From IMG/VR virus record IMGVR_UViG_3300013131_000093, positions 1 to 41,939 of that record: a DNA stretch of 41,939 nt; one strand, 5' to 3'. The position numbers and the translations under genes were made by a program. Origin of the DNA: a virus. Of the stretch, positions 14,151 to 30,663 are shown in pieces. The first letter of the stretch is position 1, and every line of letters starts with the position of its first letter. The notes beneath the pieces are model-generated. The model was given only the letters and a program-made list of their open reading frames with translations, made no database searches and had not been told where the DNA came from.

Positions 14151-14172
14151 AATGTATATAAAGGAGAATTTT

Positions 14173-15999
14173 ATGTGTGGTATAATGGGTTACAAGGGAA
14201 ACAAGAAGTGTTTGCCAATTATATTAGATGGACTTAAACGACTAGAATATAGAGGATATGATAGTGCTGGAGTATCCTATATAATAGGCAATAAATTAAT
14301 TACATTTAAAAGTCCTGGATGTGTTAATGAGTTAATTAATAATTGGATAGATTTTGATATGCCAAGTAATATTGGTATAGGTCATACTAGATGGGCAACA
14401 CACGGTCAACCATCTCAAAGAAACGCTCACCCTCATACTACTAGCGACGATAGATTAAGCATCGTTCATAATGGAATTGTAGAAAATTATGTAGCATTAC
14501 AAAAAGAATTAATAGATAAAGGTTACTTATTTGTTTCGGAAACAGATACAGAAGTTTTATTATATTTAATATACGATTATTTAGTAATAGAAAATTTACC
14601 ATTATTTGAAGCTGTTAAATTTGCTCTAGAAAGAGTTGTTGGGGCGTATGCTATATGCGTCATAGATAAAAAAGATCCAGAAAATATAGTAGCTGCTAGA
14701 AAAGGAAGTCCTCTTGTTGTAGGTTTGGGCGAACCGGGAGAATTTTATGTTGCTAGTGATCAATTAGCTTTAGTAGGATATACAAATGATATTGTTGTAT
14801 TAGAAGATAATGTTGTTGTGGAACTAAAAGATCAATTAACTTGCTATGATATGAGAAATAAAAAAATATCTCAATGCAATATATCTAAACTATATAATCA
14901 AATATACAATATTGAAAAAAATGGATACGATCATTTTATGATCAAAGAAATATATGAACAGCCTAGAGTTGTAGCAGACTGTTTGAGTGGTAGGATTGAT
15001 GGTTATAGGATAAAACTTGGAGGTTTATTTGGTTATGAAAATATCTTAAGTACTGCGGATCATATTACTATACTTGCATGTGGATCATCGTGGCACGCTG
15101 GATTAATAGCAAAATATTATTTTGAAGAATTTTGTGGAATAAAAACTAGCGTGGAATATGCTAGTGAATTTAGATATAGAAAACCAGTTATTAATGAAGA
15201 CGATATTGTAATAGCTATATCACAAAGTGGCGAAACAGCTGATACTATTAATGCTGCAAATTTAGCAAAATCCAAAGGGGCTATTGTTATTGGAGTTTGT
15301 AATGTAGCAGATTCTTCGTTAGTTAGATTAACAGAGTGCGGAGTATATTGTAGGGCTGGCGCAGAGATAGGGGTGGCCAGTACAAAAGCTTTTATGTCTC
15401 AAGTAATAGTATTATTATTAATAGCACTATGGATAGAACAATATAGAGACTCTAGAATGTTAATAGATTATAGACAAGCTATTATAGATGATTTAAAAAA
15501 ATTACCAATAGTATTAGAAGAAGTATTAAAGTTAAATAAAAATATAAGAAAACTTGGTGCTAAGTTCCATAAATCTAAAAATTGCATTTATCTAGGAAGA
15601 GAATATAATTTTCCTGTAGCCTTAGAAGGAGCATTAAAATTAAAAGAAATATCTTATATTCATGCTGAAGGATATCCTGCTGCCGAAATGAAACATGGTC
15701 CTATAGCTTTAATAGATAAAAATATGCCGGTAATTGTTGTGTCTAACAACAAAAAACAATATAGTAAAATTGCAAATAATATCAAAGAGATACAAGCTAG
15801 GAGCGGAGAAGTTATAGAGGTTTATGCAGAAGATAGGTTTTCTGGTGATTATGGATTAAAAGTTCCTAGTGTGGTTGATCCCGTAAGTCCTTTGATATCT
15901 AGTATGGTATTACAATTATTTGCATATTATTGTGCTATTTTGAGTGGTCACGATGTTGATAAACCAAGAAACCTAGCCAAAAGCGTAACTGTAGAATAA
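14173..15999 (+). CDS. glmS: Glutamine--fructose-6-phosphate aminotransferase (isomerising)
   Basis: 608 residues. The start is the ATG at 14173 so that Cys2 becomes the N-terminal nucleophile; AAGGAG is 6 nt upstream. The N-terminal Ntn amidotransferase domain shows CGIMGY, YRGYDSAG, HTRWATHG (71-78) and HNGIVEN (99-105). Two SIS sugar-isomerase domains follow (ILACGSSWHAG, AISQSGETADT, EGALKLKEISYIHAEGYPAAEMKHGP), and it ends with LAKSVTVE as full-length GlmS does. It makes glucosamine-6-phosphate from fructose-6-phosphate and glutamine. It overlaps the acetyltransferase gene by 1 nt. Codons are AT-rich like the late genes. A complete GlmS is unusual in a phage. Confidence 0.97.
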   Translation: MCGIMGYKGNKKCLPIILDGLKRLEYRGYDSAGVSYIIGNKLITFKSPGCVNELINNWIDFDMPSNIGIGHTRWATHGQPSQRNAHPHTTSDDRLSIVHNGIVENYVALQKELIDKGYLFVSETDTEVLLYLIYDYLVIENLPLFEAVKFALERVVGAYAICVIDKKDPENIVAARKGSPLVVGLGEPGEFYVASDQLALVGYTNDIVVLEDNVVVELKDQLTCYDMRNKKISQCNISKLYNQIYNIEKNGYDHFMIKEIYEQPRVVADCLSGRIDGYRIKLGGLFGYENILSTADHITILACGSSWHAGLIAKYYFEEFCGIKTSVEYASEFRYRKPVINEDDIVIAISQSGETADTINAANLAKSKGAIVIGVCNVADSSLVRLTECGVYCRAGAEIGVASTKAFMSQVIVLLLIALWIEQYRDSRMLIDYRQAIIDDLKKLPIVLEEVLKLNKNIRKLGAKFHKSKNCIYLGREYNFPVALEGALKLKEISYIHAEGYPAAEMKHGPIALIDKNMPVIVVSNNKKQYSKIANNIKEIQARSGEVIEVYAEDRFSGDYGLKVPSVVDPVSPLISSMVLQLFAYYCAILSGHDVDKPRNLAKSVTVE

Positions 16000-28113: not shown

Positions 28114-28596
28114 ATGAAACAGAACCAACTACATGGCGAAGTAAGGTTTCATCTTGGTGGTGGGGCTCATTATATGCACTGGCAAGTGCGAATCAAGCAG
28201 GGCGGTAAAACTGTTGACGTGTATTATTACGACCCTAATGAATATCAGTTGGAAATGAGGGGCTGTAGGCTGCGTAATCGTCCTAATAAAGCCAAGCAAG
28301 TTTTTGAGGCTGGTGTGCATGATGTGAGCGGGTGGATTCGGTGTGAAGAAACCATGCTTCGCAAAAGTTTTTATCCGGTTTTGCCTGTTGACAATCTTGA
28401 AAAGTTGTATTATAATCCGCTTCGTGATCCACACTGGCGTCGTGAAAGTGATAACAATGAGTTTATCTGGGATGAAACACAATACGCTACACTGATTACA
28501 AGTGGCAAGCAAGTTTATATTCTAGAAGAACGAGATTGTGCATTTGACAATATTAGAGAAATAGACCCAAAGTATTTAGAAGGATTTAATGTATGA
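28114..28596 (+). CDS. Conserved phage-type protein, unknown function, predicted leaderless
   Basis: 160 residues (MKQNQLHGEVRFHLGGGAHY). RFHLGGGAHYMHWQV, VDVYYYDPNEYQLEMRGCRL and QVFEAGVHDVSGWIRCEE resemble a phage protein family I have seen in several phage groups without a function. Ends overlapping the next gene by 4 nt (ATGA). Confidence 0.65.
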   Translation: MKQNQLHGEVRFHLGGGAHYMHWQVRIKQGGKTVDVYYYDPNEYQLEMRGCRLRNRPNKAKQVFEAGVHDVSGWIRCEETMLRKSFYPVLPVDNLEKLYYNPLRDPHWRRESDNNEFIWDETQYATLITSGKQVYILEERDCAFDNIREIDPKYLEGFNV

Positions 28597-28961
28597 TTAG
28601 TATTCAGGTGACGATTGCCGAGGCTATTGCTATTGCTAACACGGCGGGTAACGATCTGCATGATCGTATCGTGAAGGTTATTGAGGTGGCTCTTGGCGTC
28701 AACCAGAGTCGTGATGTGACCATCACCAAGATGCCGGGAGACAATCGTCTCGCTTGTATCAAGAGTATTCGTTTGCACTCTGGCTGGAGTTTGAAAGAGG
28801 CCAAGGAATGGACGGATACTCTGGTGGGGCGATACGACAGCACTTATGGTAAGTGGATTAACGGCGCTAGTAAGAGTACTATCAAGTTGCCTACTCCCGA
28901 TGCAGCCGAGACTCTGTTGCGTGAACTGACCACTTTGGGCTGCGAGGGATACCTCTCTTAA
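28593..28961 (+). CDS. Ribosomal L7/L12 C-terminal-domain-like protein
   Basis: 122 residues. Residues 52-120 have the pattern of the bL12 C-terminal/ClpS-like fold: IKSIRLHSGWSLKEAKEWTD (56-75, as in IKxVRxxTGLGLKEAK) and a final AETLLRELTTLGCEGYL. The N-terminal 50 residues are not the L12 stalk-binding domain. Host bL12 C-termini recruit translation factors, so a free phage copy could compete for or recruit them (inference). Coupled by ATGA to the previous gene. Confidence 0.7.
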   Translation: MISIQVTIAEAIAIANTAGNDLHDRIVKVIEVALGVNQSRDVTITKMPGDNRLACIKSIRLHSGWSLKEAKEWTDTLVGRYDSTYGKWINGASKSTIKLPTPDAAETLLRELTTLGCEGYLS

Positions 28962-29043
28962 ACTAAAGCCTTGCTGCGTAAAGCTTTACGCCAAGGCGAG
29001 ACGGCGACAGAAAACGCAAACCCTTGATACTGCTAAACTTAGG
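28962..29043 (+). repeat. Dispersed four-arm element, copy 15
   Basis: CTAAAGCCTTGCTG, CGTAAAGCTTTACGCC, AAGGCGAGACGGCG centre, CGCAAACCCTTGAT and AAACTTAGG. Confidence 0.8.
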
Positions 29044-29073
29044 AAAAATCAAAGAAAGATTCAATGTAGAGGG

Positions 29074-29101
29074 TTGACAATGACGATAACCATGATATAC
29101 T
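29074..29101 (+). promoter_or_regulatory. Upstream promoter of the 29232 gene, class B
   Basis: TTGACA, 16 nt with ACGATAACC, TATACT; about 85 nt before a second promoter. The segment between has no frame. Confidence 0.8.
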
Positions 29102-29160
29102 GATAGCATCACACGACAAGACGCTAGTTGAGAGCAACCAACAAAGTTTCAACTTAGCAC

Positions 29161-29188
29161 TTGACAGGTGATGTTGACGATGTATAAT
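29161..29188 (+). promoter_or_regulatory. Downstream promoter of the 29232 gene
   Basis: TTGACA, 16 nt, TATAAT; ACGATG just before the -10. Confidence 0.85.
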
Positions 29189-29231
29189 ACGTTTACTTGG
29201 TTTGATAACACTTTTGAGAAAGGTTTTTACA

Positions 29232-29483
29232 ATGAAGAAGTTTTCTTTTGCGGTTGATGTTGTTGGTGATGATGTTGATTCGTCGGCTGTTGTTGATGCT
29301 CTGCGTAAGACGCTTACAAGCGAACTCTCCGACGAGGTGTTTGCTAATGTCAAGCCCGCTGGTGTCAAGGCTTTCAGCGAGCAGGGTTATAAGGTGTGGC
29401 GTGCCCGCGTCACTGGTGTGACTGCCGAGCAGGCCGGTGATGCTCACGATGGCAAGATCGCCAAGGAGGAGGCTACTGCCTGA
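29232..29483 (+). CDS. Small unknown protein
   Basis: 83 residues from the ATG at 29232 (AAAGG about 10 nt upstream): MKKFSFAVDVVGDDVDSSAV, then a helix and WRARVTGVTAEQAGDAHDGK. Strand-helix-strand, Asp-rich start. Codons are GC- and C-richer than the neighbours. Two tandem promoters suggest strong expression. Confidence 0.65.
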   Translation: MKKFSFAVDVVGDDVDSSAVVDALRKTLTSELSDEVFANVKPAGVKAFSEQGYKVWRARVTGVTAEQAGDAHDGKIAKEEATA

Positions 29484-29484
29484 C

Positions 29485-29512
29485 TTGACAAACTGGACTG
29501 TGCCAGTATAAA
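29485..29512 (+). promoter_or_regulatory. Promoter of candidate structured RNA 2
   Basis: TTGACA, 16 nt, TATAAA, starting at the stop codon of the 29232 gene. Confidence 0.8.
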
Positions 29513-29518
29513 TAGGTT

Positions 29519-29709
29519 TTAGGCACAGTGCGGCGGGATAACTTCCCGCGTAATATGCCGGGGATTCAACCGGCCTAGCAGAGTCTAACCAACTAATAAC
29601 CAGCGTGGTTGCTGGGAAGGGGTCTGCTGCTAGTAATATAGCGATGGTAAAGTGATCCCACCATCTAACCGTATAGCCCGCACGGGACGCCGTGACGGGC
29701 TTTCGGCAA
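29519..29709 (+). ncRNA. Candidate structured RNA 2, upstream of tRNA-Arg
   Basis: About 190 nt without a frame and much more GC-rich than its surroundings, packed with clear helices in order: GCGGGA/TCCCGC; GCCGG/CCGGC; CTAGCAGA paired with TCTGCTGCTAG enclosing CCAGC/GCTGG; GATGG/CCATC; and AGCCCGCACGG/CCGTGACGGGCT. It has its own promoter and ends just before tRNA-Arg, so the tRNA-processing machinery may make its 3' end. It does not match RNase P RNA, tmRNA or 6S RNA as I know them. Confidence 0.7.
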
Positions 29710-29713
29710 TAGA

Positions 29714-29785
29714 GGCCCCATAGTTAAATGGATATAACAAGTGCCTTCTAAGCACTGGTTAGAGGTTCGATTCCTCTTGGGGCTA
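29714..29785 (+). tRNA. tRNA-Arg (UCU)
   Basis: Acceptor GGCCCCA/TGGGGCT, anticodon stem AGTGC/GCACT with loop CTTCTAA, giving UCU, and T-arm GAGGTTCGATTCCTC. Decodes AGA. Confidence 0.95.
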
Positions 29786-29789
29786 TTTC

Positions 29790-29872
29790 TCTAAAGCATT
29801 GAAGCGTAAGGCTTTGCGAATATTGTGGGCGGAGGCGAAAATCATAAACCTTTGTGATTCAAGGATTTACGC
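29790..29872 (+). repeat. Dispersed four-arm element, copy 16
   Basis: CTAAAGCATTGAAG, CGTAAGGCTTTGCG, TGTGGGCGG centre, CATAAACCTTTGTG and CAAGGATTTACGC. Confidence 0.85.
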
Positions 29873-29899
29873 ATAAAATCTTTTCTTCAAGAATAGGGC

Positions 29900-29928
29900 T
29901 TGACTGTACCGATAATCTAGTGTAGAAT
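29900..29928 (+). promoter_or_regulatory. Promoter of the 29953 gene, class B
   Basis: TTGACT, 17 nt with CCGATAATC, TAGAAT. Confidence 0.85.
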
Positions 29929-29952
29929 CGAGAGACACGCTAGGAGAAAGTG

Positions 29953-30663
29953 ATGAAAACTGCAAACGGTAATGACAAGTTAGGTAAGGAAAACTGTATC
30001 GTCGTGTCTCGTCCCGTTGGCGATACTTGTCCACCAGACTGTGATTTTTTGGGTAATGGTTGCTATGCCGAGGACTTGGAAAATATCTATCCCGGTGTGC
30101 GTCCTGCTGGTATGCAGAATCTTATCACGGAAAAAAACCGTATCCGTTCGATGTTGGTCGATGCTGTCAAGAAAAATAAAGATGTTCGCTGGCATGAACG
30201 CGGCGACTTTTTCAAGGACGGTCAACTCGACAATGAATATGTCGATAATGTATTGTGGGCTTGTGAGAGTATCGTGGCCGATGGCGGTAGTCTGCCAACA
30301 ATGTGGGCATATACTCATATTTATGATACTAGACTGTCTACTGAACTTGGTAAGTATATAAATATGTATGCTAGTATCCATGATGGCGAAGATATGAAAC
30401 AGGCAAAGGCCGCTGGTTTTAGGCATTTTGCGTGGTGCGATAGTGATACTAAGATTGCCCCTAAGCGTCCGCGTAGTAAGGCTAAAGCCGACGCATGGCG
30501 AGCAGCATTACCGAAACTGGTTGTCTTAGAGGGGGTAAAGTTTATCACTTGCCCGGAAATCCGTCGTGGTCGTGGTGTCGTCACTTGCACGAAAACTAAA
30601 AATAGCGTACACTGTGATTTGTGTCCGCGTGGCTTGGCTAATGTTTTGTTTCCCTCCCACTGA
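29953..30663 (+). CDS. Cysteine-cluster phage protein (GP88/DUF7227-like)
   Basis: 236 residues from ATG 29953 (AGGAGAAA upstream; a GTG at 29950 is equally placed). Early IVVSRPVGDTCPPDCDF...GCYAED gives a C-x3-C-x6-C cluster. WHERGDFFKDG and TMWAYTHIYDTRL follow, with late Cys positions in FITCPEI and HCDLCPRGL. I recall this arrangement from phage proteins of unknown function that may bind a metal or Fe-S cluster. Biochemical role unknown. Confidence 0.7.
   Translation: MKTANGNDKLGKENCIVVSRPVGDTCPPDCDFLGNGCYAEDLENIYPGVRPAGMQNLITEKNRIRSMLVDAVKKNKDVRWHERGDFFKDGQLDNEYVDNVLWACESIVADGGSLPTMWAYTHIYDTRLSTELGKYINMYASIHDGEDMKQAKAAGFRHFAWCDSDTKIAPKRPRSKAKADAWRAALPKLVVLEGVKFITCPEIRRGRGVVTCTKTKNSVHCDLCPRGLANVLFPSH

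Follow-up and report, generated by a model that had tools for sequence, protein, structure and literature searches.

A pistol-class ribozyme joined to a conserved structured RNA near tRNA-Arg in large uncultured phages

Two elements in a non-coding stretch

What is encoded in a stretch of phage DNA that has no reading frame and runs up to a tRNA gene? The stretch covers positions 29485-29713 (+ strand) of a virus record of 41,939 bases, analysed here over its whole length (the window). An earlier note had described it as a single GC-rich structured RNA with its own promoter, and its composition is as described there. The stretch has 52% GC, compared to 38.5% in the window and about 44% in its surroundings (98th percentile among 229-nt stretches), and ORFs of at least 60 aa are absent over 29484-29713 on both strands. 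The folding energy is -93.4 kcal/mol (z = -4.5), equalled by none of 200 shuffles, and the part after the ribozyme gave z = -3.5 when folded alone. This is a GC-rich, non-coding and unusually stable stretch. What does not stand is its unity, since we found two elements, a pistol ribozyme at 29492-29555 followed by a separate structured RNA at 29551-29713.

Upstream, a promoter-like TTGACA-N16-TATAAT (29161-29188, +) matches the consensus at 12 of 12 positions and would serve a small ORF of 83 aa (29232-29483, +). A homologous frame precedes the element in related loci. This ORF had no match in Pfam or PHROGs (for PHROGs the query was the TTG-start form, from 29202). The ribozyme begins 8 nt past its stop codon, and the structured RNA is followed by a tRNA-Arg with anticodon UCU, TCT in the DNA (29714-29785, +). 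Elsewhere in the window, an ORF of 122 aa (28593-28961) has a weak, below-cut-off match to the C-terminal domain of ribosomal protein L7/L12, and a 615-aa protein (14152-15999) strongly matches phrog_13807 (function unknown) and more weakly resembles glutamine amidotransferase and aminotransferase families. The relatives of the terminase and of a DUF932-like protein, used for host inference, were mixed and indicated no host.

The locus is framed by an intergenic two-box element, TAAAnCCTTG-N6-AAGGnTTTnCG, found at about 21 places between 16523 and 36012 of the window (for example 28964, 29792/29845, 30910/30963 and 35934/35987), with 53 bp between the starts of the two boxes in almost all copies. 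There were 31 matches on the + strand with up to 4 mismatches, compared to 0.2 in shuffles. Most copies begin at most about 20 nt after a gene end, shortly before a TTGACA promoter, and most gene ends in the 16.5-36 kb region have the element within about 20 nt and then such a promoter. Some copies form a long hairpin interrupted only by one mismatch at its centre; RNAalifold applied to the copies returned a consensus without pairs. Candidate roles for the element are terminator, operator and integron-like cassette site. The copy after the tRNA (29792-29871, +) is the probable end of the transcription unit. The ORF, the pistol, the structured RNA and tRNA-Arg all lie between the elements at 28964 and 29792, so that the pistol is a boundary within one transcription unit. 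TTGACA-N16/17-TANAAT sites are also abundant on the + strand, 21 and 16 for the two spacings, compared to about 2.7 for each in shuffles; these roughly 37 promoter-like sites (16962-41000) correspond to about one per small gene.

Pistol ribozyme and overlapping promoter

The search of Rfam that the earlier note had proposed returned the pistol model RF02679 at 29492-29555 (+), with 56.5 bits over a cut-off of 34.5. The match is full length (model positions 1-68 of 68), no pair is broken, and P1, the pseudoknot, P2 and P3 are intact; by sequence criteria the element is a pistol self-cleaving ribozyme. The ribozyme suggested earlier is thus correct for the first 64 nt, in a class that had gone unrecognised, and the rest is without Rfam match. 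Reading the sequences of the window, its relatives and the divergent locus L295, we found compensation in P1, P3 and the pseudoknot, where ACUGG/CCAGU changes to ACUCG/CGAGU, and GACUAUGC/GCAUAGU to GACUGUGC/GCACAGU or GACCCAGC/GCUGGGU. The predicted cut lies at the junction of P3 and P2, between 29550 and 29551, as expected for the class. In the pistol mechanism the upstream product ends in a 2',3'-cyclic phosphate and the downstream product begins with a 5'-OH (PMC4604425).

When viral contigs were scanned for the pistol core, at least 119 sites matched. Most of the matches listed had no tRNA nearby, and one group among them had a pistol, some 150-190 nt and then tRNA-Arg(TCT). In another setting, L058 and L098 each carry three pistol-core matches within 3.6-4.4 kb in which no tRNA was found, so that pistols recur along a single phage genome.

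The promoter proposed in the earlier note is probably right. It reads TTGACA-N16-TATAAA (29485-29512, +) and is probably functional, but the pistol core AGUAUAAAUAG forms its -10 and transcription would be expected to start at about 29519-29522, inside the ribozyme, which again makes the feature two elements and not one. The length of about 190 nt given before agrees with the distance from this expected start near 29520 to the tRNA. A transcript from this promoter would lack the ribozyme and could not self-cleave, so that only read-through from upstream would carry the pistol. Among the matches listed, 16 of 24 family loci and 3 of 86 other pistols had the -35 (at least 5 of 6 positions); L295, itself a family member, is among the latter three. 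A promoter within the ribozyme as a general property of pistols was accordingly rejected.

A separate tRNA promoter between the RNA and the tRNA was found in 18 of 31 loci, indicating that the tRNA does not need the RNA. The perfect TTGACA was present in 10 of the 13 loci without a tRNA-proximal promoter and in 3 of the 18 that have it (Fisher p = 0.0012, an optimistic value, as the sequences are related and no phylogenetic correction was applied). At the threshold of 5 of 6 positions this association disappears (p = 0.45).

A structured RNA family and its natural variants

The 22 distinct pistol-to-tRNA sequences among the matches listed were alignable, and a search with a covariance model (R1) found the domain in 37 viral contigs including the window, with 105-171 bits, in contigs of up to 238 kb. 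In the window the domain (29551-29713, +) scored 152.8 bits; its ends are given as the ribozyme and RNase P would release them. Our 42-pair model contains two pseudoknots, and 94.9% of its cells are paired across 29 distinct homologues, compared to 30-49% in slid controls; the helices are hence not due to chance, although the fold was drawn partly by eye from the same 29 sequences, which favours it over those controls. Two-sided changes, the covariation check proposed before, affect 26 of the 42 pairs (shuffle mean 13.6, none of 500 shuffles as high) with a covariation score of 0.368 against 0.146, a significance that shuffles overstate because the sequences are related. The view of real helices in a structured RNA adjoining tRNA-Arg is borne out by this covariation. 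G-U pairs are frequent on the + strand (they would be A-C on the other), which identifies it as the RNA strand.

The domain opens with hairpin H1 (29557-29561 with 29570-29574, +), replaced in a long subtype by a pseudoknotted hairpin that provides a third covarying pseudoknot (mean helix score 10.3, compared to 7.5 with loops swapped between sequences, 0 of 2000). The closing helix P5 (29575-29581 with 29627-29633, +) has two-sided changes in 5 of 7 pairs and is 97.5% paired. Within it, the loop of hairpin H2 (29600-29604 with 29611-29615, +; two-sided changes in 4 of 5 pairs) engages in pseudoknot b, AACCA/UGGUU (29587-29591 with 29606-29610, +; 2 of 5, 93.8% paired), for which AGCCA/UGGCU and AUCA/UGAU also occur. 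Pseudoknot c is a kissing helix, GGGGUC/GAUCCC (29619-29624 with 29654-29659, +), 93% paired and with two-sided changes in all 6 pairs, for instance GUUAUCG/CGAUAAC in L009, GGUUCG/CGAACC in L085 and GUAUCG/CGAUAC in L041. It involves the loop of hairpin H3 (29643-29648 with 29660-29665, +; 3 of 6, 97.7% paired). The terminal stem H4 (29669-29673 with 29702-29706, and 29675-29685 with 29690-29701, +) has two-sided changes in 6 of 13 modelled pairs and includes the interrupted stem AGCCCGCACGG/CCGTGACGGGCT already seen in the earlier note.

Two other readings of the domain were rejected: protein coding, as there is no ORF and homologue lengths differ by non-multiples of three, and a T-box-like binding of the tRNA by UGGU, as UGGU pairs with ACCA and both change together. 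Rfam gave nothing for the domain at E up to 10 in 29100-30000, and in six related loci (E up to 1) the pistol was the sole ribozyme and the domain was again unmatched. It is not a tmRNA, 6S RNA or RNase P RNA, as stated before, with no Rfam or ARAGORN match. In isolate phage genomes, blastn with two RNA subtypes returned short chance or pistol-only matches, and with the whole region tRNA matches. One pattern scan of bacterial genomes gave no match in 100 model-checked loci, a weak test since the pattern fits only the long subtype. We consider the domain a previously undescribed structured RNA family, outside Rfam 15 and the isolate phage genomes searched.

The family is modular. Besides the complete arrangement, L337 has lost P1 of the pistol with the RNA intact, and L153, L327 and L339 have pistols with inserted hairpins and RNAs intact at 155-162 bits. 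In these three, two hairpins stand in place of the variable core nucleotide (AUAAA-N-AG), one being GGGCUAACGCCC and the other varying in length; their pistols score below the pistol cut-off, and the inserts lie just upstream of the R1 match. In L023 the pistol is 6 nt before the tRNA, and the RNA is absent there and across the 62-kb contig. L295 and L308, a single sequence type, have a diverged pistol and the RNA with no tRNA directly downstream, and this is the only exception to the presence of tRNA-Arg(UCU) after the RNA in family loci. The RNA described before as ending at tRNA-Arg does so in the window (the tRNA starts at 29714), but the tRNA is not essential to it. This gain and loss of modules indicates that the RNA persists independently of an intact ribozyme and of an adjacent tRNA. 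A pattern search for H4 gave 17 loci without pistol and RNA, in which a similar upstream ORF is followed by H4 alone, behind a TATAAT- or CATAAT-type promoter, and by tRNA-Arg. Relatives of 114-244 kb have neither pistol nor RNA, with only H4 being picked up. As such relatives exist, the cassette is accessory and these phages do not depend on it. None of the 18 contigs searched over their full length has more than one pistol or more than one RNA. In L099 (2782-3063, -) a small ORF lies between two tandem pistols, the second followed by the RNA and tRNA-Arg, an arrangement expected of elements that cut transcripts.

Possible roles and relation to known systems

We give even chances to a model in which read-through transcripts are cleaved by the pistol to release a stable, trans-acting phage RNA, supplemented by the internal promoter and given its 3' end by RNase P. 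In transcripts from the promoter at 29161 that extend past the small ORF, the pistol would fold and cleave at 29550/29551. The structured RNA would thereby start with a 5'-OH, and the upstream ORF mRNA would have a fixed 3' end protected by a hairpin. The second promoter, with the pistol core as -10, would produce ribozyme-free transcripts of the same RNA plus the tRNA, and RNase P acting at the tRNA 5' end would set the 3' end of the structured RNA. From the persistence of the RNA where the adjacent tRNA is missing and where the ribozyme is not intact, we infer that it is most likely a stable phage RNA that works in trans and does more than control the tRNA. Against this, a role in cis would also suit the tRNA-Arg that follows the RNA everywhere but in one sequence type, the internal promoter would yield RNA unable to self-cleave, and some relatives do without the cassette. 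A more elaborate version, which we regard as possible but doubtful, is a new class of phage RNA with a dual-use gene start, a pistol as RNA and, as DNA, the -10 for ribozyme-free RNA, with two outputs of different fate and a released RNA acting in trans on the host or phage development. If so, it would be their ends, 5'-OH and 5'-triphosphate, that distinguish the fates of the two outputs.

The main rival is a role in cis for tRNA-Arg(UCU), somewhat less probable still, with ribozyme and structured leader setting the tRNA level or its 5' processing and the fold shaping or protecting the pre-tRNA. The near-constant tRNA downstream, the pistol 6 nt from the tRNA in L023 and the H4 before tRNA-Arg even where pistol and RNA are missing are all in its favor. 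However, in L295/L308 the pistol and the RNA occur although no tRNA comes directly after them, a promoter separates the RNA from the tRNA in 18 of 31 loci, and relatives without the RNA have the same tRNA gene. In a riboswitch-like reading, a metabolite or protein bound by the pseudoknotted domain would control read-through to the tRNA or the following gene, with the 5' end set by the pistol. This reading would suit the compact multi-pseudoknot fold and its conserved unpaired stretches (GUCUAACCAAC, AAUAA and GAAG). It is improbable, as no conserved expression platform or terminator follows the domain, no terminator-like site was found on the + strand of 29000-30000, the gene downstream of the RNA in L295 is unlike that in the others, and in many loci a promoter lies after the RNA. 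That the domain is a second catalytic RNA processing the transcript together with the pistol is very hard to credit despite its pseudoknot-rich conserved core beside a known ribozyme, because no Rfam ribozyme matched it at E up to 10, the six related loci gave the pistol only and a conserved cleavage junction is not apparent.

Turning to the trans-acting model and known systems, we know of no biological role for pistol ribozymes. The locus matches the full RF02679 model above its cut-off and shares a phage setting with the class (PMC4604425), and differs from it in being joined to a conserved structured RNA, in a core that doubles as promoter -10 with a -35 typical of this family only, and in the hairpins inserted at the variable core position in three relatives. 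In the open-access literature searched, we found nothing on a pistol joined to another conserved RNA. The theta (HDV-like) ribozymes of gut phages are likewise self-cleaving and tied to tRNA genes, but they have an HDV fold and cut at the tRNA 3' end (PMC10879173). Here the pistol is upstream, with the cut 163 nt before the tRNA in the window and 6 nt in L023, and the Rfam models of the HDV family gave no match at the locus. GOLLD and ROOL are also RNAs encoded by phages near tRNAs, rich in pseudoknots and of unknown function (PMC12286853); they measure about 660-800 nt or more, as against about 160-190 nt here, and our RNA is without Rfam match and headed by a ribozyme. The GOLLD and ROOL models were unmatched at E up to 10 in 29100-30000 and up to 1 in six related loci. 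The locus is an example of a promoter sharing its -10 with a ribozyme core. It adds a new structured phage RNA, kept in dozens of uncultured large phages, with an unusual combination of putative ribozyme-based release and transcription. With a pistol heading a conserved, covariation-supported phage RNA, and with modules gained, lost and decayed in nature, the question of what pistols are for becomes testable.
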